The translations under genes and the position numbers were made by a program. A stretch of 57,325 nucleotides of DNA from Candidatus Eiseniibacteriota bacterium (GTDB taxonomy: Bacteria; Eisenbacteria; RBG-16-71-46; JACRLI01), in NCBI GenBank assembly GCA_025351485.1, contig JANXVU010000151.1, positions 1 through 57,325 on the forward strand, in the 5' to 3' direction. Position 1 is the stretch's first letter. Each line of letters opens with the position of its first letter. A model generated the notes under the pieces. The model did not search any database and was not told the DNA's origin. It saw only the letters and a list, made by a program, of their open reading frames with translations. Of the stretch, positions 25,593 to 40,263 are shown in pieces.

Positions 25593-25787
25593 GAGCTTTT
25601 CTCCGGGTAAAAGGTGGCTAATACCTTTGTTTAAAACTACTTATGGCGAATGAGAGAGGTTTCGGCCCCGGGAGGGGTGGGGCCGGGTAGTCCACTCTAC
25701 GGGATTGGGAGGGGCGAAGTTGCGTGGTACATTGATTTCTCTCCCCAGAACCGCTTCGCCGTTACCCGGCGGGAAAGATATAGCCTG

Positions 25788-26873
25788 ATGGGCGATTGCC
25801 CGAAAATCCTCGCCGTTGCCACGGCCTCGCCCCCTCACGTGGTCAGGCAGGCGGACGTGCGCACCATGATCGAGAGTCTCTTCTCGGATGTCCTGGCCAC
25901 CGACGACCGGTTGATCCAGGTATTCGACCACGCCCACATCGAAAAACGGCACTTCTGCGCGCCGCTCGACTGGCTGGCCGCCGACCGCACCTTCGCGGAG
26001 CGCAACCAACGCTATATCGAATCCGCGGTTGCGCTCGCGGGAGAGGCGGCGCGCAAGGCCATGACACTCGCGGGTCTTCAATCGCACGACGTGGACCACA
26101 TCATCTTCGTTTCTTCGACCGGGATCGCCACGCCCAGCTTGGACGCCCGGCTCTCCAATACCCTGGACCTGAGGTCCGATTGCCGCCGCACCCCGATCTG
26201 GGGCCTGGGCTGCGCCGGGGGCGTCGCCGGCCTGGCCCGGGCCCGTGAATTCGCGCTGGGCGATCCTTCGGCGCGGATCCTGTTCATCGCCCTGGAGCTT
26301 TGCAGCGTGACCTTCCAGCGCAACGATCTCTCCCGCCGCAACCTGGTGGCCACATCCCTGTTCGCCGACGGCGCGGCCGCGGTGATCGTCGCCGGGGCCC
26401 GGGCCGCGATCCCCGCGGGCGGCATGCCGCCGCTGGATGTGATCGCTTCCCGCAGCAAGCTGTGGAAGGACACGCTGGACCTGATGGGCTGGACCGTGGA
26501 GAGCGACGGGCTGCACGTGGTGTTCTCCCGCGACATCCCGACGGTGGTGCAGGAAAAGGTGCGCCCCAGCCTGGAGGAATTCTTGAGAGTCCAGGGGTTG
26601 GGCCTGGAGACGATCGACCACATGGTGATGCACCCGGGCGGAGCCAAGGTGCTGAGCGCGTTCGCCGAGGCCCTGGACTTGCCGGAGAACGCCTACCGCC
26701 ATTCCCGCGAGGTGCTGCGGGACTTCGGGAACATGTCTTCCCCGACGTGCCTGTTCGTCCTGGAGCGGTTCCTCGAAGCCGGGGAGATCGCCGCCGGCCA
26801 GACCGCGGTGATGATGGCCCTGGGTCCCGGGTTTTCCGCCGAGTACCTGCTGCTGCGCGGGGCGTCCGATTGA
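25788..26873 (+). CDS. Type III polyketide synthase
   Basis: A 361-residue chalcone/stilbene-synthase-like enzyme that would extend an acyl starter with malonyl-CoA to alkylpyrones or alkylresorcinols. The catalytic triad is visible: C142 in GLGCAGGVAG, H282 in MHPGGAK, N315 in FGNMSSPT. I start at the ATG 25788 (MGDCPKILAVATASPP), which matches family N-termini; the frame is open to 25650 but the extra 46 residues are not family-like. Its TGA overlaps a TTG start of an ICMT-type methyltransferase, the arrangement known from bacterial alkylpyrone/alkylresorcinol operons such as Bacillus bpsA-bpsB and Streptomyces srsA-srsB. Confidence 0.9.
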   Translation: MGDCPKILAVATASPPHVVRQADVRTMIESLFSDVLATDDRLIQVFDHAHIEKRHFCAPLDWLAADRTFAERNQRYIESAVALAGEAARKAMTLAGLQSHDVDHIIFVSSTGIATPSLDARLSNTLDLRSDCRRTPIWGLGCAGGVAGLARAREFALGDPSARILFIALELCSVTFQRNDLSRRNLVATSLFADGAAAVIVAGARAAIPAGGMPPLDVIASRSKLWKDTLDLMGWTVESDGLHVVFSRDIPTVVQEKVRPSLEEFLRVQGLGLETIDHMVMHPGGAKVLSAFAEALDLPENAYRHSREVLRDFGNMSSPTCLFVLERFLEAGEIAAGQTAVMMALGPGFSAEYLLLRGASD

Positions 26874-27436
26874 GCCCGGGCTCCGATACGGGCGCAAGGG
26901 TCGCCTGGGAGTTGGGGAGTTTCCTGTTCCTGCTGACCCTGCAGCGAATGGGCGAACTGCGCCTTTCGGCGCGCAACGAGTTGCGGATGCGGGCGCTGGG
27001 CGGCCGCGAAGTAGAATCCGGCCAGTTCCCATGGCTGGTGCTCTTGCACGTGCTCTTTCCGTTGAGCCTGGCGGCGGAAGTGATGTTCGCGGACTCCCGC
27101 CCCGGCCGGTTCTGGCCGGTGTGGCTCGGGGTCGTGCTCGCCGCTCAGGCGCTGCGGCTCGCGACCATGCGCGCCCTGGGGGTGCGGTGGAGCGTCCACA
27201 TCTGGGTCGTTCCGGACCTGCCCCTGGTGACCGGCGGGCCGTACCGGTTCTTCCGACATCCGAACTACCTGGCGGTGGCCGCCGAACTGCCGGCCGCAGC
27301 CTTGCTCTTCGGGGCATGGCGGACCGCGGCCATCTTCACGGTCTTCAACCTGGCGGCGCTCCGAACCCGGGTTCGCGCCGAGGAGCGGGCGCTGGGTATC
27401 GGGCCCGCGCGCTCCGGATCGCAGGCGAAAGGTTAG
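26870..27436 (+). CDS. Isoprenylcysteine carboxyl methyltransferase-family membrane methyltransferase
   Basis: A 188-residue integral membrane methyltransferase. Hydrophobic helices occur at about 10-25, 48-70 and 75-95, and the SAM-binding core has VTGGPYRFFRHPNYLAVAAEL with the typical PYRxxRHPNY signature, and RVRAEERALG at the end. By analogy with BpsB, it probably O-methylates the product of the coupled type III PKS. The TTG start at 26870 is inferred from the TTGA overlap. Confidence 0.85.
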   Translation: MSPGSDTGARVAWELGSFLFLLTLQRMGELRLSARNELRMRALGGREVESGQFPWLVLLHVLFPLSLAAEVMFADSRPGRFWPVWLGVVLAAQALRLATMRALGVRWSVHIWVVPDLPLVTGGPYRFFRHPNYLAVAAELPAAALLFGAWRTAAIFTVFNLAALRTRVRAEERALGIGPARSGSQAKG

Positions 27437-29195: not shown

Positions 29196-29855
29196 ATGAC
29201 ACACATTCCGGGCTCGTTCGTAACAAGGGAAGCGGGAGGCGCCGGGGGCGCCGGGTCCGGGCCGGGCACGCCGGGCGCCGCGGAAGCGCCGGAGCGGCCG
29301 ACCGCGGCCGATCTGGAGCGCGTGCGCGCCCGGGACCCCAAGGCCCTGGAAGCCTTCTTCGACCGGTACTTCGACCGGATCTTCTCGCTGGCCTACCGGC
29401 TTACGGGGGACCGGACCATTGCCGAGGATGCAGCCCAGGACGTGTTCCTGAAAGTCCATCGCGCCCTGGACCGGCTCGATCCTTCGCGCGATCCCTACCC
29501 CTGGCTGGTGACCATCGCCACCAACGTGTGCCGCGACTTGTGGCGCTCGGGCGCCTACCGGATGGGGCGGCGGGCGATTCCGCTCCAGGACCAGGACGGG
29601 AACGAGTACGAATTGCCATCCGGCGGAGAAAGTCCGGAGGCGGAGCTCCTGCGAACGGAGCGAGAGCAGCAGGTGCAGCTGGCGCTCGCGAAGCTCCCGG
29701 AGGGGCTTCGCGAAGCCGTGGTGCTGCACGCGTACGAGGGCATGGGGCATGACGAGATCGCCGTGGCGTTCGGCATCCAGCCGGCCGCCCAGCGAAAGCG
29801 ATACTCGCGCGGACTGGCCGCGCTGGCCGTCCTCCTCAAGGAAACCATGAAATGA
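29196..29855 (+). CDS. ECF-type sigma-70 family sigma factor
   Basis: A 219-residue two-domain sigma factor. After a Gly/Pro-rich N-terminal stretch of about 45 residues, region 2 reads [19 protein letters not shown]...[16 protein letters not shown] with [17 protein letters not shown], and region 4 [31 protein letters not shown]. The ATG at 29196 follows a GAGAGGG; an upstream in-frame start at 29139 is less likely. Its TGA overlaps the next ATG (FecR-like protein), the usual sigma/anti-sigma arrangement, so it probably controls the genes that follow. Confidence 0.9.
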
Positions 29856-30667
29856 CCGACGACCGGGATTCGCTCACTCCCGAGACTGCATCTGCCGAGG
29901 AAGCCGTGCGCTCCCTGCGCCCGGTGTCCGCACGCCCGGAGTTCAAGGGCCGCCTGCGTGCGGAGTTTGCAGAAGGCAGGCTCCAGCCGCGGCTGGCCCT
30001 GGTGAAGCGCGAGCCGGCAGGCGGGGCGTGGAAAGGCGCGTTCTTAATTTTCGCCAGCGCCGCGGTCGCCGCGTACATCGTGCTTCAACTCAATGCCGGG
30101 CCCGACTGGCAGGTGCGCAAGGTGCAGGGCTCCGGACAGATCCGGGTGGACGGGCATCGGTATTCCGCGGGCAAGCCGGCCGACTACGCGGCGCTCCTGC
30201 GCCCGGGCAGCCGGATCCAGCTCACCGGAGCGGCTTCGCTCCAGGTGGCCGCCGCGGACAACCTGATCATGGAAATCGCACCGGGCTCCGACATTTCCCT
30301 GCCCCGCGCTCCGGGCCGCTGGTGGGATCGCCAGGGGCTCGCAAATATCCGTGCCGGAGAATTGCGCATTACGACCGGCCGGGCATTCCCAGGGGCCGGT
30401 CTCCTGGTGGTTTCGCCCGACACGCATGTGATGGTCACCGGCACCACGCTGGCCGTGATCTGCGACAACGGCGGCACTTGCGTGTGCGTATGCGAGGGCC
30501 AGGTCAAGGTGGGCCGGGAACTGGACTCCATGGTGGTGGTGCCCCAGGGCCACCTGCGCTACACCCCGCGAGACGGCTCCGCGGCCCACGCGGCCGACAT
30601 CCGGCCCACCGAGCGCGTTGCGCTGTCCGATCTTCGCGACAAGGCCCGGCGGGTCATCGGCCACTGA
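29852..30667 (+). CDS. FecR-domain membrane protein, likely anti-sigma regulator
   Basis: A 271-residue protein with a cytosolic N-terminus (1-60), one transmembrane helix at about 61-81 (GAFLIFASAAVAAYIVLQL) and a periplasmic FecR domain: VRKVQGSGQIRVDG, LLRPGSRIQLTGAASLQV, MVTGTTLAVI...GQVKVG. Encoded in ATGA overlap with the sigma factor, so it is the probable anti-sigma/sensor. Oddity: four Cys at 204, 210, 212 and 214 (the last three as CVCVC) in the FecR core, where most family members have few Cys; they could form disulfides or bind metal. No TonB-dependent receptor is nearby. Confidence 0.82.
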   Translation: MTDDRDSLTPETASAEEAVRSLRPVSARPEFKGRLRAEFAEGRLQPRLALVKREPAGGAWKGAFLIFASAAVAAYIVLQLNAGPDWQVRKVQGSGQIRVDGHRYSAGKPADYAALLRPGSRIQLTGAASLQVAAADNLIMEIAPGSDISLPRAPGRWWDRQGLANIRAGELRITTGRAFPGAGLLVVSPDTHVMVTGTTLAVICDNGGTCVCVCEGQVKVGRELDSMVVVPQGHLRYTPRDGSAAHAADIRPTERVALSDLRDKARRVIGH

Positions 30668-30756
30668 TCCCCCGGGGGCGCCCCGGCTCCACGGCCACCC
30701 AGCCCCGCGTTCCACCTTCCCTTGACAGTCCCGCGGCGCGCCGCGAGACTTCGGTC

Positions 30757-31320
30757 ATGTCGCGCTCCCGCGAAGCCCCCCTTGCCGGCTCGATTCTTGG
30801 CGCCCTGGCGCTCCTTCTTGGTCCGACGGACTCATTTTCCGCTCCGCCTTGCAGCGACCATGCCGCCTGGGATGCCTGCGGCGCCCACTCCACTGCGATC
30901 TATGCAACGGTTTGGAGCGCCTCCGGGGTGGCCGGCTGCCGCGGCGCCCGATTCGGGCGGGCGCAAGGCGTGTCGCAGGAGGTTCGCTCAGCGCTCTTGG
31001 ATGCGCTTTCGGAAAGCGAACTGAAAGGCAGGGGAGCGGTCCTGCGCGGCCGGATTAGCATTCTGGGCTCCGGACGGGCGGTATCTCCGGACGCGCCCTA
31101 CGATCCCGGCTCCATGGCCCTCTACCTATCCTCAGGTGAAGCCGATGCCGTGATCCTGCCGGGGGAGGCCCGCACTTCGGGCTATGGCTGGCGCCTGGCC
31201 CGGTCCCGGTTGGGACCCAAGGCCGCCGGGCGTCCGGTCCTTGCGGGCGTCTACAGCGTGCAGCAATTCCCCCTGACCGCGGACGAACTCGTCCGCTGGA
31301 GGATCCAATGCGATCCGTGA
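30757..31320 (+). CDS. Small secreted protein of unknown function
   Basis: I do not recognise this 187-residue protein. It has an N-terminal signal-like segment (LAGSILGALALLLGPTDSFSA), four Cys in the mature part that could pair, and no catalytic motif I can name. A TTGACA sits at 30722-30727 just upstream but without a good -10. Its end overlaps the start of the alpha-2-macroglobulin gene by 13 bases, so it is co-expressed with it and may act in the same compartment. Confidence 0.65.
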   Translation: MSRSREAPLAGSILGALALLLGPTDSFSAPPCSDHAAWDACGAHSTAIYATVWSASGVAGCRGARFGRAQGVSQEVRSALLDALSESELKGRGAVLRGRISILGSGRAVSPDAPYDPGSMALYLSSGEADAVILPGEARTSGYGWRLARSRLGPKAAGRPVLAGVYSVQQFPLTADELVRWRIQCDP

Positions 31321-34300
31321 CCATGGCGTGCCTGCTGGCGCTGGCCCTGCCCGGCGGGAGCGCACAGGCAGGCGCCGTGCAGCCCAGGACCGGTTCCGTG
31401 AGAGGGCGGGTGGTGGAAGCGGGCGTTTCCCGATCGGGCGTGAAGGGCGCACTGGTCATCGCCTCCGATTCCTGGACGGGTGTGCTGGACACCGTTCACA
31501 CGGGCAACGAAGGTGGTTTTGTGTTCCCCAGGCTCCCGGCGGGCCGGGCGGAGTTGGAAGTGCGGATGAAAGGCTACGCCGGCCAGGCCCGCCGCACCGT
31601 GCCGGTGCGCGCCGGCGAAACCGTCTCCGGCGTGGTGGTCACCCTTGCTCGATCGGCCATCCTGACCGGCCGTGTCCTGGACGCGGCGGGCCGCCCCATC
31701 GCCGGCGCCGAAGTGCGGGCGCTGGATGCCAGGTCCAGGACCGGCAAGGACGGCTCGTTTCGCCTCTCCGGCGTGCGGCCCGAATACCTGGAGGTGACCG
31801 CGCGAAGCGACCGGTATCGCTCTCGCGTGAGCCCTCGCCTGCGCCTCGGCCCGGGCGAAGTTCGCTCGCTCCCCGACCTTGTGTTGCTGCCGGGTCGAAC
31901 TGTCAGCGGTCGGGTGGTCGGCCCCCGCGGGGATCCCATCGCCGGCGTGTCGATCCAGTCGCGCGACCGCTCCACGAAGACCGGCGCGCACGGAGAGTTC
32001 CGCCTGGGCGGCCTGGAGCCGGGGGGCGAACTCTACGCGTGGAAGAGCGGCCAGTCCGGCGCCAATGTGCCGCTGCCGCCGGACTCTTCGGATGTCATCG
32101 GCCTGACCCTGACGATGGACGCGCTTTCGGGCAAAGGGGGTGATCCGCTCATTCTTTCGATGGTTCGCGACACGTGGGCCCCCGGCGCCCTCATCCAGGC
32201 CGAGCTATGGGCCCGGGAGGGCGCCTTTGTGCAACTGCGCGCCTCGACTGCCCGCGGCGCCTCGGTCTTTCGCGCCTCCTTGTCCCCGCGGAATGGGAAA
32301 GGCGGCCGCATCCAGGTCCAGCTTCCAGCTCTGCCCGCGGGCAATTACACCCTGAGCGCCGCCACCCCTTCCGGCGACACCAGGACGCTGACCTTCCATG
32401 TGAGCGACATCGCGCTCATCGGCGAAGTGCGGGCGGGTGAGCGGCGCCTGCGCGCGGTGAGGCTCGCGGACGGGTCCGGCGTAGCCGGAGTTCCGATACG
32501 AGAAGCTGGGCCGCAGGCAGTGTCGCTGGGCGCCACCGGCGTGGATGGAGTTTTCGTGGTGCCCACGGGTGTCGGGCCGGTGCTCGAGTCTGCCGATCCC
32601 CTGAGGCCCGCCCAGCTGCGCATGGATCAACAAACCCCGTCCGCCGAACCCGCGCGCCTGGTGGCGCTCATGGACCGGCCGGCGGTCCGCCCGGGCGGGC
32701 AGGTGGGGGTCAAGGTGATCGCTCGTACCGAGGACGCAGGATCGCTTCGGGCGGTGGTGGATTCCTCGGTCACGCTGCGCCTCACCACGGGAGGCGCGGA
32801 TCCGGTGGACCGCACCGGCCGTCTGGACGCCGAGGGAGTCTACGTGGACTCGCTCCCGGTGCCTTCCAATCTCGAATCGGGGCAGGCGATGGTCACGGTC
32901 GTCTCGGCCGGCGCCGGAACTTCGCGCGGCCTGCCCTTGACCATCCGACCCACTCCGGCGCTTACGGTGTCGATCACATCCGATCGCAGCGTCGCCATGC
33001 CGGGCGAATCGGTGCGCTTCCTGGTGCAGGTGCGCCGCCAGGACGGCCTGCCGGCAACCGGGGTCAGGCTCTGCCTGGAAGGTTCGCAGCAGAGCTGTTC
33101 CTATGATTGGGGGCAGGACCGCAGCTACGGTGGCTACACGTGGCTTGGTCTCTCCCGCCGGGAGATCCTGATCAGCGACGGCTCCGGGGAGGCGACATTC
33201 ACCGAGGTGGTTCCGGAGCTGCTCGCCGGGGATGCCGATCTTCACTACGAGGTACGGGCCGAAGAGGGCGGCAGCGAGCCCGTGCAGGCGGGGATCTCGG
33301 TGCACGCCTTGGCCTCCTCGCGGCACGTCGCGGTGCTCGACGGGGAGCCCGCCACGCCAGGAAAGCCGCTCGAGGCGCGCCTGGCGCTGCTCGCGCTGCC
33401 CCGCCGCCGGGTGTCCGGTGGAGCCGTGCACATCGACCTCTACCGGTTGGAACTGAACCGCCGGGTGCGTCGCGCGCAACTGCTCGAATCATCGGATCTC
33501 GCGACAGACGCATCCGGCGAGATCCGTTGGCGCTCCGCCAGCGCGGCCAGTTCAGGCTCGGAGCTGCGGCTTCGGGCCACGGCGATCGACAGTCTCGGTC
33601 GAGCGGCACAGACCGAGTACAGCTGGTGGGTAGCGGGTTCGCGCGTCGGGGCCGAGGCCGAGGTCAGCTTCGAGCTGCGCGCGCTGCAGGACACCGTGGG
33701 TGAGACGGCCCCCGAGGCGCGCTTCCAGGTGCGGGCCGGCAGGCCCGGAGTGCTGCACGTGGCGCTGGCGGGCCGCGATGCCTTCACCTGGCTGCCGGAT
33801 GTGAGATTTGTCGCTGGCGCCACTGAATTCAGCGTGCCCGCATCCCTGTTTGGAGCCGGCGGCGTGCGCGTGACCGGCTACGCCACGTGGAACGGCGACG
33901 TCCTGGAGGGCAGCGCCCAGACCGTGGTCCGCCTCGCCGGTTCCCGCCTCGCCGTCGAGGTTCGCCCCGACCGCGACGTGGCGTCGCCGCGCGACAGCAT
34001 CGCCTTCACGGTCACCACGCTGGATGGGGCCGGCAAGCCCGCTGCGGCGGAAGTGGATCTGGCGGTCTTTGACCGCGGACTGCTGTCCTTCGGCGGCGAC
34101 GGCAATCCTGACTTGCTGGAAGCTTTCTGGATGCCCCGCCCGCTGCAACTCTTCATCACCTCGAGCGTCCGGCGCGGCGAGCGGGCGGGCGGCAAGGACT
34201 CCGAAAGCCTGGTGCGGCGGGACTTTCGTGACGTGGCGCTGTGGCTGCCTCGGCTGCGCACCGGGTCCGATGGAACCGCGCGCGCCTTTTTCCGCGCTCC

Positions 34301-36098
34301 CGACAACCTCACGTCCTGGCGTATCACTGCCCATGCGGTGGGCGTGGGAACGGCGGTCGGCCATGCGCGGGCGGATGTCACCGTGCGCCGGAGGGTCGCA
34401 CTCAGCCTGTCCAGCCCGCAGGCGTTGGTGGGGGGCGACAGCGTGGTCCTGCGGGCCACCCTGCGCGAGGCGGCCGGCGAGCCCGCGCGAAGGTTCAGCG
34501 ACTGGACCGTGGGCGTCCTGGGGGGAGAGTTCGCCGGTCCCATGCCGGACGTGACCGTGTCCCCGGAAAGCCCGGCCGAACTGCTGTTGCCGGTGCGCGT
34601 GGGCGCGGACGCCTCGCAGCTCAAGCTCACCCTGATCGCGCGATCTTCCGGAGAGGGCGACGGGCTGGAGCGCCAGTATCCGGTGCAGCCCCGCCGGCGA
34701 GTGGTGTTCGGAGGGCCGGACGCGTCGGGCGTGGCCTGGGATACCGTGACCACGCTCCGCTGGAATGCGCCGGCGCTTGCCGCGGCCATCCAGGCGGGAG
34801 CTGCCACGTCGGTAGGTCCCGGGGAGCCTTCGGGCGCGTGGCGACTGGCGGCGCGAGCCTCCGTGAGAAATCTCGAACGACTCCACTATCTGGAGCTCCG
34901 CGCGGGAAACGAGCCAGGGGATGCGGCTCCCGAAGCGCAGGCGACCCCCGCCGGGGCGCCCAGGGGAAAGCATGTCGCGCCGCTGGACGTGCCGCGGGAG
35001 AGGGAGTTGATGCTGGAAACCCTGCGGGGCCCTCGCGCGCTCCTTCGGGCTGACGGCTCGCTGGACATGGACAAAGCCTGCGAAGCGCTTATCGCGTCCA
35101 CCGGGGGGCGGGATACGCCCGTGGACGCCTGCATGCGCGAAGTGCGTTCCCTGGCGGACCGCGTGGCGCGCGGGCTCAGGAAACCGCGCATTTCGGCGGA
35201 GGACGCGCGCCGCGCAAGGATCGCCCTGCTGGCCGTGCGTGAACGCTTCGGCGCGGCTGCGATGGGCGCAGCCGTGGCGGGACTAGGAGAGGGGCCGGTG
35301 GCGAATTCCGTCCTTCCGGCCGAATTCCTTTCGGTCGTGATGGAAGACGAGCTGTGGGCTTCGGCCGATCGCGCCCTGCTCGCGGGCTCCTGCCCGCCCG
35401 AGGCCTGGTTGTGGCTCCTGGGAGGCCGCGGACGCGGTGAGTCCGGAGTGTGGCCGTCGGTGGTGGCTTCCCACCTGCGCGATCCGGATGTGCCGGTTCG
35501 CGAGGCGCTCGCCGCGGTGTCCAAGCCCGAAAACGCCATTTCGTGGCTCACCCAGCCCGAGATCCTGGCGGACCGGTCCACGCCGGATCTTCCGGGCAGC
35601 CGCCGGATCGAGCTCAAGCGCGGGTGGGCGTCCCTGCTGCAGGCGCCCGACACATCCGCGGAAGGCGGTCTGGAGGTGAGGTTCTTCAGGGAAGTCCCGG
35701 ATACGGATGCCTGGGGAGAACCTTCCACCAGGCAGGAGCCGGCCGGATTGCCGCTGCGCCTGGGTGAAACCCTGCGGGCGCGCATCACCTCGACCCGTCC
35801 GCTCGAAGTGGAGCAGACCGAAGTCATCGCCCCGCTGTGCGGGGGCCTGGACATTCGAGCGGCCGTCGGCGCCGAAGGGTCCGAGTTGAATCCGGGTCAC
35901 CGCGAGGACCGGGTGATGCGCGGCCGTCTGGAAGCCACCGCGTGGCGCGGCTGCGCGGCGGGCTCCACGCTTTGGGAAGGCACCGTTCGCGTGACTCACG
36001 CGGGCCGCTTCACGCTGTTGCCGCCGGCGCTCCACAGCCGGGTGTTTCCTCTGCTCTACCGCTCGGGCATGTACCGCACCCTGGACGTGAGCCCGTGA
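31308..36098 (+). CDS. Alpha-2-macroglobulin-family protein without thioester
   Basis: A 1596-residue exported protein. After a signal peptide (to about residue 22) come three carboxypeptidase-regulatory-like Ig modules (about 28-100, 115-180, 190-260, with GRVLDAAGRPIAGAEV and GRVVGPRGDPIAGVSI), then macroglobulin (MG) domains. The A2M signatures VDLAVFDRGLLSF near 915 and WLPRLRTGSDGTARAFFRAPDNLTSW near 977 are clear. No CxEQ thioester motif follows, and the helical C-terminal region (about 1150-1596) is divergent. Bacterial A2Ms trap proteases or protect the envelope; a thioester-free form must work non-covalently. GTGA overlap with VanW downstream. Confidence 0.85.
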   Translation: MRSVTMACLLALALPGGSAQAGAVQPRTGSVRGRVVEAGVSRSGVKGALVIASDSWTGVLDTVHTGNEGGFVFPRLPAGRAELEVRMKGYAGQARRTVPVRAGETVSGVVVTLARSAILTGRVLDAAGRPIAGAEVRALDARSRTGKDGSFRLSGVRPEYLEVTARSDRYRSRVSPRLRLGPGEVRSLPDLVLLPGRTVSGRVVGPRGDPIAGVSIQSRDRSTKTGAHGEFRLGGLEPGGELYAWKSGQSGANVPLPPDSSDVIGLTLTMDALSGKGGDPLILSMVRDTWAPGALIQAELWAREGAFVQLRASTARGASVFRASLSPRNGKGGRIQVQLPALPAGNYTLSAATPSGDTRTLTFHVSDIALIGEVRAGERRLRAVRLADGSGVAGVPIREAGPQAVSLGATGVDGVFVVPTGVGPVLESADPLRPAQLRMDQQTPSAEPARLVALMDRPAVRPGGQVGVKVIARTEDAGSLRAVVDSSVTLRLTTGGADPVDRTGRLDAEGVYVDSLPVPSNLESGQAMVTVVSAGAGTSRGLPLTIRPTPALTVSITSDRSVAMPGESVRFLVQVRRQDGLPATGVRLCLEGSQQSCSYDWGQDRSYGGYTWLGLSRREILISDGSGEATFTEVVPELLAGDADLHYEVRAEEGGSEPVQAGISVHALASSRHVAVLDGEPATPGKPLEARLALLALPRRRVSGGAVHIDLYRLELNRRVRRAQLLESSDLATDASGEIRWRSASAASSGSELRLRATAIDSLGRAAQTEYSWWVAGSRVGAEAEVSFELRALQDTVGETAPEARFQVRAGRPGVLHVALAGRDAFTWLPDVRFVAGATEFSVPASLFGAGGVRVTGYATWNGDVLEGSAQTVVRLAGSRLAVEVRPDRDVASPRDSIAFTVTTLDGAGKPAAAEVDLAVFDRGLLSFGGDGNPDLLEAFWMPRPLQLFITSSVRRGERAGGKDSESLVRRDFRDVALWLPRLRTGSDGTARAFFRAPDNLTSWRITAHAVGVGTAVGHARADVTVRRRVALSLSSPQALVGGDSVVLRATLREAAGEPARRFSDWTVGVLGGEFAGPMPDVTVSPESPAELLLPVRVGADASQLKLTLIARSSGEGDGLERQYPVQPRRRVVFGGPDASGVAWDTVTTLRWNAPALAAAIQAGAATSVGPGEPSGAWRLAARASVRNLERLHYLELRAGNEPGDAAPEAQATPAGAPRGKHVAPLDVPRERELMLETLRGPRALLRADGSLDMDKACEALIASTGGRDTPVDACMREVRSLADRVARGLRKPRISAEDARRARIALLAVRERFGAAAMGAAVAGLGEGPVANSVLPAEFLSVVMEDELWASADRALLAGSCPPEAWLWLLGGRGRGESGVWPSVVASHLRDPDVPVREALAAVSKPENAISWLTQPEILADRSTPDLPGSRRIELKRGWASLLQAPDTSAEGGLEVRFFREVPDTDAWGEPSTRQEPAGLPLRLGETLRARITSTRPLEVEQTEVIAPLCGGLDIRAAVGAEGSELNPGHREDRVMRGRLEATAWRGCAAGSTLWEGTVRVTHAGRFTLLPPALHSRVFPLLYRSGMYRTLDVSP

Positions 36099-36772
36099 GC
36101 GCCCGGGCTCGTGCGGCAGCGGTGCTCTGCGCGCTGGGCGCGCTCGGGCTCGACGCAGGCGCGTTCGCGCAGGCGCCATCCTCCCGGGCGCTGGGGCGGG
36201 CCATCGTGTCCCTGGACCGGTGCTCGCCCCTTGAGCGCCTGAACGTGCGGGTGACGGCACGGCGACTCCGGAGACTCGAGATTCCTCCGCGAGGAGAGTT
36301 TCATTTTGTGGAGGCGCTTGAAGTCCGGGGCGGGCTGCCCTGCGCGCCGGGCCGCGCCCTGATGGACGGCCGGCTGCTGCAGGAGCCGGGGGGCGGAGTG
36401 TGCGTCGTGGCCGGCGCCATCCACGCAGCGGCCTTGCGCGCGGGCCTGGGGCTGATCGAGCGTTCCGGACACAGCTCGCGGGTGCGCACCCTGCCCGCCG
36501 GTCTGGATGCGGCGGTGTCGCAGACGGGTGGGAGCGACCTGGTGCTCTGGAACCCCTACAAGTTTCCCGTGTGGCTGGAACTGCGGCTGGATGAGGGGCG
36601 CTCGCTGGAGGCCGCCTGGACCGCCGAGGAACCGGGCATTGGCGCGCAGGTGTTCCGCGACTCGGAAGGGGCGCTGGTCCGCAGGCTCGCGGACGGGCGG
36701 GAGGAAGTGTTGGAGCCGGCGCCTCCCATGACGCCCGGATCGCGCAGGAATTCGATGGGTCAAGACCCTTGA
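36095..36772 (+). CDS. VanW-family exported protein
   Basis: A 225-residue protein with an N-terminal signal (AAAVLCALGALGLDAGAFAQA) and a VanW domain: GEFHFVEAL (counterpart of the FSFN motif), LLQEPGGGVCVVAGAIHAAA matching the GGGVCQVSSTLYNA core, GLGLIERSGHSSRV and the DLVLWNPYKFPVWLEL strand. VanW occurs beside vancomycin-resistance and cell-wall genes; its biochemical role is not established. The GTG start at 36095 overlaps the A2M stop, and its own TGA overlaps the TTG start of allantoinase. Confidence 0.82.
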   Translation: MSARARAAAVLCALGALGLDAGAFAQAPSSRALGRAIVSLDRCSPLERLNVRVTARRLRRLEIPPRGEFHFVEALEVRGGLPCAPGRALMDGRLLQEPGGGVCVVAGAIHAAALRAGLGLIERSGHSSRVRTLPAGLDAAVSQTGGSDLVLWNPYKFPVWLELRLDEGRSLEAAWTAEEPGIGAQVFRDSEGALVRRLADGREEVLEPAPPMTPGSRRNSMGQDP

Positions 36773-38136
36773 TCCGCCAAATCCGTTCCCGCCACATCGC
36801 CACCCCGGGTGGAATCGTGGATGGAGTGGTGGAGGTCGCGGAGGGCCGCGTTCGCTCGGTGGTCCCGGCGGGGAGCGCCGGGCCACATGCCGGGGCCGTC
36901 GACCTTGGCGATGCGTGGTTGCTCCCGGGCTTCGTCGACACCCACGTTCACGTGAACGAGCCCGGACGGGCCGAGTGGGAAGGCTTTGAGTCGGCCACCC
37001 GCGCCGCCGCCCTGGGTGGAGTCACCACCCTGGTGGACATGCCGCTCAACAGCGTGCCCGCGACCACCTCCGTTGCCGCCTTGCAAGCCAAGCTCGCCGC
37101 CGCCTCCGGAAATTGCCACGTGGACGTCGCCTTCTGGGGTGGCGTGGTGCCCGGCAACGCCGCCGAGCTCGAGCCCCTGGCTCTGGAGGGCGTCTGCGGC
37201 TTCAAGTGTTTCCTCGCTCCATCCGGAGTGGAGGAATTCCAGCACGTGAGTGAACCCGATCTGCGCAAGGCCATGCCGGTGCTTGCACGGCTGGGCTTGC
37301 CGCTGCTGGTGCACGCAGAGGATCCCGCGCTACTCCAGGGCGCGGACCGCGCGCTCCAATCCGATCCCCGCAGCCACCTCGCGTGGCTCGAATCCCGGCC
37401 CGCCGCCGCCGAGGTCTCCGCCGTCCGGAGGATGATCCGGCTCAGCCGCGAAACCGGCTGCCGCGTGCACGTGGTGCACCTTTCCACCTCCGACGCGCTG
37501 GCCGATCTGCGGGAAGCGCGCACGGCGGGAGTGCCGATCACCGTCGAGACCTGTCCGCACTACCTCTACTTTCACGCCGGTCAGATCCTCGACGGCGCGA
37601 CCCCGTTCAAGTGCGCGCCGCCCATCCGGGGCGAGGCCAACCGGGAAGCGTTGCGCGCGGCGCTCATGCAGGGCGACCTGGACCTGGTGGCGACGGATCA
37701 CTCGCCGTGCCCGCCTGAGTTGAAGCGATTGGAGGACGGGAGTTTCCTGAATGCGTGGGGAGGGATCGCCTCCATCCAGTTCGGCGCCGCCGCCGCCTGG
37801 ACGGCCATGCGCTCCCTGGGCGCCACCCCGTGGAACCTCGCGCGTTGGATGTCCGCGGCCCCGGCGGCGCTGGCAGGGCTGCCGGGCCGCAAGGGATTCA
37901 TCGGCCCGGGCGCCGACGCCGACCTGGTGGCCTTTCAACCCGGTGCACGTTTCACGGTGGATGGTTCGAAAATCCTGCACCGCCACCGGGTCTGCCCGTA
38001 TATTGGTGAGGAGCTTTTCGGGATGGTGGAGACGGTGTGGAGGCGGGGAGAAGTGATCGCCCAGGGCGGAACGCCCGTGGGGCCCGCGAACGGAAGCGCG
38101 CTCGCAAGAATTTCGAACCGGGAATCCAGGGAATGA
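36769..38136 (+). CDS. allB: Allantoinase
   Basis: Opens the allantoin ring to allantoate. The 455-residue amidohydrolase keeps the binuclear metal ligands: H59 and H61 in DTHVHVNEP, the carboxylatable Lys K146 in GFKCFLAPSG, H182 in LLVHAEDP, His in VHVVHLSTSDA and Asp in ATDHSPCP. LAPSG and HLSTSDA favour allantoinase over dihydroorotase, and three ureide genes follow. The start is a TTG at 36769, in TTGA overlap with VanW. Its TGA overlaps the next ATG. Confidence 0.9.
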   Translation: MIRQIRSRHIATPGGIVDGVVEVAEGRVRSVVPAGSAGPHAGAVDLGDAWLLPGFVDTHVHVNEPGRAEWEGFESATRAAALGGVTTLVDMPLNSVPATTSVAALQAKLAAASGNCHVDVAFWGGVVPGNAAELEPLALEGVCGFKCFLAPSGVEEFQHVSEPDLRKAMPVLARLGLPLLVHAEDPALLQGADRALQSDPRSHLAWLESRPAAAEVSAVRRMIRLSRETGCRVHVVHLSTSDALADLREARTAGVPITVETCPHYLYFHAGQILDGATPFKCAPPIRGEANREALRAALMQGDLDLVATDHSPCPPELKRLEDGSFLNAWGGIASIQFGAAAAWTAMRSLGATPWNLARWMSAAPAALAGLPGRKGFIGPGADADLVAFQPGARFTVDGSKILHRHRVCPYIGEELFGMVETVWRRGEVIAQGGTPVGPANGSALARISNRESRE

Positions 38137-39401
38137 ACGGACCGATCCAGGAATCGACGCTTCAAGAAATGATCGAGGGGCTACGCCGCTTCGGCGCCGA
38201 CGGCCGGGGCGTGACCCGGCTGGCCTATGGCCCCGCGTGGTGCGAAGCGCAGCGCTGGCTCGACTCGCGCGCGCGCGAACTGGGGCTCGATTGCACGGTG
38301 GATCCGGGTGGAAACCTCTATGCGCACCCGCCCGGACTCGAGCCCGCCGCGCCGGTCATCCTGACCGGGTCGCACCTGGACACCGTGGAGCAGGGTGGGG
38401 CGTACGATGGGGCCTATGGAGCGGTGGCGGGGATCCTGCTAGCGGCCATGGGCCTGGGATCGGGCGGGATCCCGGTGGTGGCCTACGTGAGCGCCGAGGA
38501 AGAGGGCAGCCGGTTCGCATCGGCGTTCCTTGGGGCGCGCAGCATGCTGGGGATGGCGGAGCACGCGGACCTGGACTCCACCCAGGATTCCGCCGGAGTT
38601 TCGTGGCGCGCGGCGCTGGAATTCGCGCGGGAGCGCGGGTGCGCTTCCCCGGTCCATGCAGGTCCCCGGCCGTTCGAGCCGCTCTTCCGGCCGCGGATGG
38701 AGCTGGAGGCGCACATCGAGCAGGGACCGGTGCTGGAGGCGGAGCAGAAGGAGATCGGCATCGTCACTTCCATCATCGGCTTCCGGCGCGTGGAGATCCG
38801 GATCACCGGCGAGGCGCGCCATGCGGGCACGACCCCGATGGCCATGCGCAAGGACGCCCTGGTGGCCGCCGCCGAGTGCATCTGGTCGGCCGAAGTGCTG
38901 GCGATCGAGCATGGCGATCCGGCCGTGGCCACCGTGGGCCGGGCCGAGGCACGCCCCGGGGCTTTCAACGTGGTGCCTGGGGAATGCGAGCTGCGCCTGG
39001 ACGCGCGGCACAGCGATTCGGCGGTCCTGGGCACGATGCTCTCCGAGCTGGAAAAGCGCTTCCGGGCCATCGCGGAGCGTCGCGGAGCGAAGCTGGATTG
39101 GAAGCCGGTCTCGTCCCACGCGCCGGTCGCGATGTCCGCCGACATGATCACCGAGGCCACGGCGCTGGCGGGCGAGATGGTCTTTTCTTTCAAGAAGATG
39201 GTCAGCGGCGCCGGGCACGACAGCATGATCTTCGCCGGCCAAGGCGTGCCGTCCATGATGGTGTTCGCTCCGAGCCATCGAGGGATCAGCCACCATCCGG
39301 ACGAGTTCACTCCGATGACCGAACTCTGGGAAGGCGTGCGCTTCTGCCACGCGCTGCTGGCTCGGCTGGCAAGGCGCGATGCGATGGAAGGGGCCAAGTG
39401 A
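38133..39401 (+). CDS. allC: Allantoate amidohydrolase (M20 family)
   Basis: Hydrolyses allantoate to ureidoglycine, CO2 and ammonia. The 422-residue M20-type enzyme has GSHLDTV near 83, GAYDGAYG, the Glu pair in SAEEEGSRF, HIEQGPVLE and GAGHDSMIFAG, the pattern of the carbamoylase/allantoate amidohydrolase branch. It could in principle act on N-carbamoyl amino acids or ureidoglycolate, but its place between allB and uraD argues for allantoate. ATGA overlap with allB and GTGA with uraD. Confidence 0.88.
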   Translation: MNGPIQESTLQEMIEGLRRFGADGRGVTRLAYGPAWCEAQRWLDSRARELGLDCTVDPGGNLYAHPPGLEPAAPVILTGSHLDTVEQGGAYDGAYGAVAGILLAAMGLGSGGIPVVAYVSAEEEGSRFASAFLGARSMLGMAEHADLDSTQDSAGVSWRAALEFARERGCASPVHAGPRPFEPLFRPRMELEAHIEQGPVLEAEQKEIGIVTSIIGFRRVEIRITGEARHAGTTPMAMRKDALVAAAECIWSAEVLAIEHGDPAVATVGRAEARPGAFNVVPGECELRLDARHSDSAVLGTMLSELEKRFRAIAERRGAKLDWKPVSSHAPVAMSADMITEATALAGEMVFSFKKMVSGAGHDSMIFAGQGVPSMMVFAPSHRGISHHPDEFTPMTELWEGVRFCHALLARLARRDAMEGAK

Positions 39402-39925
39402 GCCCGCTGCCGGATGGCCTCGCCCGCTTGAACGCCCTGGCTCCGGACGGCGCCCGGGCCGCGCTGCTGCGCTGCTGCGGCTCCGAGGTGTGGGTGGAGC
39501 GGATGTTGGAAGCGCGGCCGTTCCGCGGCGAGGCGGAGTTCTTCGACATGTCCGAAGAGATCTGGTGGGAGCTGAGCCAGGAAGACTGGCTGGAGGCCTT
39601 CGGCCGGCATCCCCGGATTGGCGACGTGGATTCCCTGCGCGGGAAATTCAAGGAAACCACGGAGTGGGCCGGCGGCGAACAGGCCGGCGTGGCCGGGGCC
39701 GACGAGGAGACGCTCCGCCGGCTGGCGGAAGGAAATCGGAACTACGAGCAGAAGTTCGACTATATTTTCATCGTGTGCGCCTCCGGGAAAACTGCCCCGG
39801 AGATGCTGGCTATGCTGGAGTCGCGTCTGCCCAACGAGCCGCGAAACGAACTGAAGATCGCCGCCACCGAGCAGGCCAGGATCACCCGGCTGCGAATCGA
39901 AAAACTCCTGGAGGGGGACGCTTGA
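39398..39925 (+). CDS. uraD: OHCU decarboxylase
   Basis: Converts 2-oxo-4-hydroxy-4-carboxy-5-ureidoimidazoline to S-allantoin. The 175-residue helical protein carries the catalytic His at 71 in FGRHPRIGD and the family's NRNYEQKFDYIFIVCASGK segment and LPNEPRNELKIAATEQARIT helix. GTG start at 39398 overlapping the allC stop. Confidence 0.92.
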   Translation: MSPLPDGLARLNALAPDGARAALLRCCGSEVWVERMLEARPFRGEAEFFDMSEEIWWELSQEDWLEAFGRHPRIGDVDSLRGKFKETTEWAGGEQAGVAGADEETLRRLAEGNRNYEQKFDYIFIVCASGKTAPEMLAMLESRLPNEPRNELKIAATEQARITRLRIEKLLEGDA

Positions 39926-40263
39926 GCGCGATCACGACGCACGTGCTGGACACCGCCGAAGGCCGCCCGGCCGCCGGCGTGCCGGTGAAACTGGAGATGC
40001 AGGAGTCCGCAGGCTGGAAATCCCTCGGCCAGGGCCGGACGGACGCGGACGGCAGGCTCCGCGATCTCCTGCCCGCCGACGCCCTTCTGCAGCCGGGCCA
40101 GTATCGGATCACGTTCGACACCGCGACCTATTTCCACCAGGGCGGCATTCGCGGCTTCTTCCCCGAGGTCGAGGTACGCTTCCAGGTGGACGAAGAGGGC
40201 GGCCACTACCACGTGCCGCTGCTGCTGAGCCCGTTCGGGTATTCGACCTACCGGGGGAACTGA
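39922..40263 (+). CDS. uraH: 5-hydroxyisourate hydrolase (transthyretin-like)
   Basis: Hydrolyses 5-hydroxyisourate to OHCU, the step before UraD. The 113-residue transthyretin-fold protein starts (TTG, TTGA overlap with uraD) SAITTHVLDTAEGRPAAGVPV, with the active-site His at 7, and ends in HYHVPLLLSPFGYSTYRGN. The diagnostic C-terminal tetrapeptide YRGS is YRGN here, a conservative change. Last gene of the plus-strand run. Confidence 0.93.
   Translation: MSAITTHVLDTAEGRPAAGVPVKLEMQESAGWKSLGQGRTDADGRLRDLLPADALLQPGQYRITFDTATYFHQGGIRGFFPEVEVRFQVDEEGGHYHVPLLLSPFGYSTYRGN

Follow-up and report, generated by a model that had tools for sequence, protein, structure and literature searches.

A conserved envelope module of a secreted AMMECR1-like protein, an alpha-2-macroglobulin and a VanW protein in Candidatus Eiseniibacteriota

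In a window of 57,325 nucleotides (the whole stretch of DNA analyzed) from a Candidatus Eiseniibacteriota bacterium, three genes at positions 30757-36772, coding for a secreted AMMECR1-like protein, an alpha-2-macroglobulin (A2M) and a VanW protein, constitute a conserved envelope module. Throughout the order these three genes stay together, and they are found, as pairs or as the complete triple, in another phylum. From the observed gene content, linkage and motif loss, we infer that these three proteins probably make up the functional unit of the locus, in which a protease trap would be coupled to cell wall repair, with the adjacent genes for an ECF sigma factor and a FecR-like regulator standing apart from it.

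Organization of the locus

The first-pass annotation of the window described five linked genes, and all five open reading frames are indeed present:

29196..29855, + strand: ECF sigma factor, 219 aa (Pfam: Sigma70_r2 2.4e-18, r4_2 7.5e-13)
29852..30667, + strand: FecR-like membrane regulator, 271 aa (PF04773, 23.0 bits; hydrophobic stretch near residue 62)
30757..31320, + strand: likely secreted, divergent AMMECR1-domain protein, 187 aa (relatives' profile; position before the A2M gene)
31308..36098, + strand: secreted, predicted thioester-free A2M with three N-terminal CarboxypepD_reg domains, 1596 aa (Pfam domains)
36095..36772, + strand: small, secreted, single-domain VanW protein, 225 aa, GTG start (PF04294, 3e-19)

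Pfam matches back the assignments of the ECF sigma factor, A2M and VanW; the FecR match (1.1e-4) falls one bit under the 24-bit cut-off. The ECF and FecR genes overlap by 4 nt, the AMMECR1-like and A2M genes by 13 nt and the A2M and VanW genes by 4 nt, and a gap of 89 nt separates the FecR stop codon from the AMMECR1-like gene. Directly 3' of VanW lie genes of ureide/purine catabolism (36769-40263), namely an allantoinase-like gene that starts at 36769 and can overlap the VanW stop codon by 4 nt, followed by genes for an M20 hydrolase, an OHCU decarboxylase and an HIU hydrolase. Because the tight packing runs on into these genes, contiguity alone is a weak sign of joint function in this genome. 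On the other side, the stretch 25650-27436 holds a gene for a type III polyketide synthase of the chalcone/stilbene synthase family, followed by one that, by eye, resembles the isoprenylcysteine methyltransferase type. The genome carries a single VanW gene and a single gene with A2M domains. The comparisons described below divide the five genes into two modules that happen to touch: ECF-FecR (29196-30667) and AMMECR1-A2M-VanW (30757-36772).

Conservation of the module in Eisenbacteria and in a second phylum

VanW is encoded in 10 of the 47 genomes searched in the class, and each of these genes belongs to one cluster with a gene for a secreted AMMECR1 protein (adjacency, 10/10, here means that both genes are within one gene cluster). 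Relatives from the same phylum carry the name Candidatus Eisenbacteria. In the nine relatives with VanW, the gene order is VanW, AMMECR1, A2M, and differs from the order AMMECR1-A2M-VanW at the locus; the AMMECR1-type gene stands directly before A2M in both. A2M is the next gene in eight of the nine; the contig of the remaining genome (G001) stops within AMMECR1. In G006, G007, G008 and G020, contig ends split or truncate the module, and the start or the rest of the A2M gene is found at the edge.

Outside Eisenbacteria, VanW is encoded directly 3' of A2M in G156, G199 and G338; the latter two belong to the same phylum, G156 not having been drawn in the sample that placed them there. Among 201 genomes of the second phylum, 186 encode VanW and 152 encode A2M. 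VanW is directly downstream of A2M at 10 of 20 A2M loci of this phylum, sampled by score and contig extent rather than at random, and missing from the other half. A gene for a secreted AMMECR1 protein directly precedes A2M in 16 second-phylum genomes, in four of which A2M is only partly on the contig. Two of the second-phylum genomes (G455 and G349) have the gene order of the locus, and the module in G455 is flanked by genes for SpoIID and a PBP transpeptidase.

In the second phylum and in G156, an uncharacterised membrane protein that has about 11-17 hydrophobic stretches is encoded directly before A2M-VanW. The loci with a membrane protein upstream of A2M are L101, L102, L103, L163, L166, L168, L171, L176, L179 and L182. 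Several of these proteins fall into two sequence families, and the three that were compared with Pfam produced no significant match.

A literature search that was thin on subscription papers, and hence is weak evidence of absence, retrieved no published description of A2M with VanW or AMMECR1, or of an Eisenbacteria macroglobulin.

The secreted AMMECR1-like protein

The product of the gene at 30757-31320, initially described as an unknown secreted protein, can now be assigned, through the relatives' profile and its position in the conserved core, as a likely divergent homologue of AMMECR1. The protein itself has no direct Pfam match. When the profile was built from the relatives with the locus sequence left out, this protein was the sole significant match (E 6.1e-5) among the 571 open reading frames of the window; a comparison using hhalign yielded E 3.2e-5 at a probability of only 72.8. 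The relatives match the AMMECR1 family (PF01871) well above the cut-off, with E-values down to 5.8e-32; those of the middle proteins of the Eisenbacteria relatives are 2.1e-12 to 2.9e-17 (Pfam). Both solved structures of the family, 1zq7 and 1vaj, are matched by the secreted proteins' profile, as is PF01871. The AlphaFold model of the locus protein (pLDDT 51.7) is too poor to rely on; in a PDB fold search with this model, the top hit, at only E 0.05, was 1zq7 (MM0484), the protein that is matched by the sequence profile as well.

The locus protein shares an LPGEA(R/K)T block and a Cys-x-Gly motif with its relatives, and the longer block VILPGEA(R/K)T with the second-phylum copy in G455. In the R-x-C-x-G block of the secreted group, the Cys and Gly are kept and the Arg is lost, as are several other conserved blocks. 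Any retained chemistry is putative at most.

VanW in the place of PBP1c

The VanW domain (PF04294) of the locus protein scores 69.2 bits, against a cut-off of 27. The protein has 34% identity with the reference, its nearest aligned relative, and retains Cys103 (GGG-x-C) and His126, in keeping with the conservation of the Cys and His columns. The first-pass annotation treated VanW as a family of unknown activity, a description that is outdated: in C. difficile, proteins with a VanW domain act as L,D-transpeptidases, an activity that involves a Cys-His-small-residue triad (PMC12729407, PMC11986978) and of which some VanW proteins are devoid (PMC12729407).

A2M traps proteases, and its combination with PBP1c has been proposed to join defence with cell wall repair (PMC4498604). 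The suggestion that VanW stands beside A2M where PBP1c usually does describes a real arrangement that recurs in other genomes and phyla. We searched 339 genomes for VanW, A2M and PBP1c. By hand count, a PBP1c-family protein adjoins A2M in about 40 of the 98 genomes with A2M, and at none of the VanW-linked A2Ms among them. The genome of the locus has VanW beside A2M instead, with only sub-threshold relatives of PBP1c and none above the family cut-off (TIGR02073). Since L,D-transpeptidases have been recognized among VanW proteins, the pairing of A2M with VanW parallels the classic pairing with PBP1c.

Alpha-2-macroglobulin and loss of the thioester

The A2M contains three CarboxypepD_reg domains, MG2 (1.7e-10) and A2M (2.2e-10) domains, the latter two above the cut-off, and a bait-region domain (A2M_BRD) that, at 18.6 bits, is below the cut-off of 22.7. 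The claim that this protein is thioester-free is borne out: no C-x-E-Q motif is found anywhere in its 1596 residues, so that, judging by its sequence, it is an A2M-fold protein of the thioester-free subtype. All seven relatives from the order that carry the thioester region keep C-T-E-Q. The YPYG motif around this site, the GWGWW stretch and the C-terminal Met-Tyr are gone as well, and RDDR is changed to REDR. In the A2Ms of E. coli and Salmonella, the C-terminal Met-Tyr protects the thioester (PMC4498604). The loss looks secondary since this copy sits inside a group that mostly keeps CTEQ or CVEQ. The fold is of low confidence and the TED is degenerate; the AlphaFold model of the C-terminus (pLDDT 42.3) is too poor to interpret, and neither the A2M nor the VanW profile retrieved a usable match when searched against PDB sequences.

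In a tree of 31 A2M sequences, a single branch (SH-aLRT 98) separates the VanW-linked proteins from all others, and VanW linkage requires a single change (8.6 with shuffled labels; 0/500). A wider tree of 38 sequences requires 4 changes (12.8 shuffled; 0/500). The A2M of the locus groups with the VanW-linked proteins, with a very long end branch (about 3.5) and a weak placement in the wider tree. These trees indicate that the VanW-linked A2Ms are clustered; we claim clustering rather than a single proven origin because near-copies contribute to it, support for the backbone is weak and the locus is on a very long branch.

The joint loss of the thioester, the TED tyrosines and the C-terminal Met-Tyr would also fit a structural rather than defensive unit, in which trapping has been lost at the locus, A2M with its CarboxypepD_reg domains is a scaffold of the envelope, VanW serves to anchor proteins or to modify peptidoglycan and AMMECR1 is a maturation factor. 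The thioester Cys is missing from the A2Ms of G338, G398 and G455 too, the last of these being the genome with the PBP and SpoIID context, and L,D-transpeptidases of the YkuD family are known to anchor proteins to peptidoglycan (PMC12729407). Most of the linked A2Ms, however, retain both C-x-E-Q and the bait-region domain, so that the family looks like a working protease trap, and we regard a purely structural role as rather unlikely. In linked second-phylum A2Ms, the sequence at the lost Cys is DTEQ at L172:4001-8503 and SSVEQ at L102:7592-12364.

The ECF sigma factor and FecR-like regulator

The features of an ECF-FecR pair are present: sigma regions 2 and 4, a FecR domain with one membrane helix (the only hydrophobic window is at residue 62) and adjacency of the genes. 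The set was originally thought to carry its own sigma/FecR switch, with all five genes in one inducible operon, in which FecR would sense envelope damage and free the sigma factor, switching on AMMECR1, A2M and VanW. The ECF, FecR and module genes do all run in one direction, overlapping by 4-13 nt save for the single gap of 89 nt, and the control of nearby envelope genes is a common role of ECF/FecR pairs. Several observations nevertheless render such an operon unlikely. Orthologues of the pair (ECF 50-62% identical, FecR 33-42%) are found at 16 other Eisenbacteria loci, at none of which (0/16) they adjoin A2M or VanW; their neighbours are genes for a GAF histidine kinase and HEAT/HD proteins, or CHAD/Ppx/Wzi genes. 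Such unrelated surroundings are an outcome that the first-pass annotation itself had named as contradicting its proposal. The neighbourhood comparison upholds the co-occurrence of A2M with VanW, in relatives from the class and in the second phylum, and fails to extend it to ECF/FecR. FecR orthologues are present in 24 of the 47 genomes of the class, 5 of the 10 with VanW and 19 of the 37 without it; the presence of FecR is independent of VanW, and the pair is carried, too, by genomes that lack A2M or VanW. A simple motif search upstream of 17 ECF genes revealed no consistent ECF-type promoter (GGAAC-N15-19-xGTx). The tight packing, as noted above, extends into the purine genes too. Finally, the gap between FecR and the AMMECR1-like gene contains a TTGACA box (30722-30727), a hexamer that is rarer in the window than expected (4 vs 10.7), and which could be part of a separate promoter; the promoter scan produced no full match.

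We therefore reject a dedicated sigma/FecR switch as a general feature of the module, given the unrelated neighbourhoods of the pair at 16 loci and the independence of FecR from VanW. The juxtaposition with the module, seen in a single genome, is particular to this lineage and looks like a local coincidence; an error in the assembly of this MAG at the 89-nt gap could conceivably be involved. The ECF sigma gene adjoins the conserved module, yet is probably outside it. The 16 loci (L147-L162) represent an ECF-FecR pair that is conserved across the phylum in two conserved neighbourhoods (GAF histidine kinase/HEAT and CHAD/Ppx).

Comparison with known systems and proposed function

The closest parallel is ECAM/YfhM-PbpC of E. 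coli, a secreted A2M encoded beside a peptidoglycan-synthesis enzyme, for which joint protease defence and wall repair have been proposed (PMC4498604). In contrast to A2M-PBP1c pairs, the partners here are VanW, from a different family that includes L,D-transpeptidases, and a secreted AMMECR1-like protein; furthermore, the genome of the locus is without PBP1c above the cut-off and its A2M is without the thioester. LdtCd4 and LdtCd5 of Clostridioides difficile share the VanW catalytic domain with its conserved Cys and His but are equipped with a membrane anchor and with PG4 domains that bind peptidoglycan (PMC12729407), whereas the VanWs linked to A2M are small and secreted, most of them having a single domain. 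The secreted AMMECR1 group, the profile of which matches the family and both of its structures, differs from canonical AMMECR1 in having N-terminal signal-like stretches and directly preceding A2M. Canonical members are cytosolic and, to our knowledge, are not tied to A2M. The YfaS-type A2Ms of E. coli likewise combine the A2M fold with the lack of CxEQ; these thioester-free proteins sit in other clusters.

In the mechanism that we favor, A2M would inhibit proteases arriving at the envelope by a bait-and-trap action; the locus A2M would trap by conformation alone, its thioester being lost. The target of VanW would be peptidoglycan, and its most likely activity that of an L,D-transpeptidase, used in cross-linking or repair of the wall; VanW would do beside this A2M the job that PBP1c does beside others. 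The AMMECR1-like protein would be an accessory of the module, and ECF-FecR a separately conserved regulator that landed beside it in this lineage. The copies at the locus are the most divergent of the set, as seen in the end branch of the A2M, the 34% identity of VanW and the detection of the AMMECR1-like protein by profile only, and the locus may be drifting or repurposed. Alternatively, it could be what decay or rearrangement has left of the module, no longer serving any coherent function, as could be read from the very long A2M branch, the degenerate TED and low-confidence fold, the lost Arg and blocks of the AMMECR1-like protein and a gene order unlike that of other Eisenbacteria. This is quite doubtful, given that none of the three reading frames is interrupted over 6 kb and the genes overlap, VanW retains its Cys and His, and the gene order matches one in another phylum.

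More tentatively, and somewhat against the balance of probability, secreted AMMECR1, A2M and VanW might represent an undescribed, multi-phylum defence and repair system, in which an L,D-transpeptidase stands in for PBP1c and a specific enzymatic step falls to the AMMECR1-like protein. If so, this would be the first clear context outside the cytoplasm for AMMECR1, an old family of unknown function, for which the module provides a testable setting.
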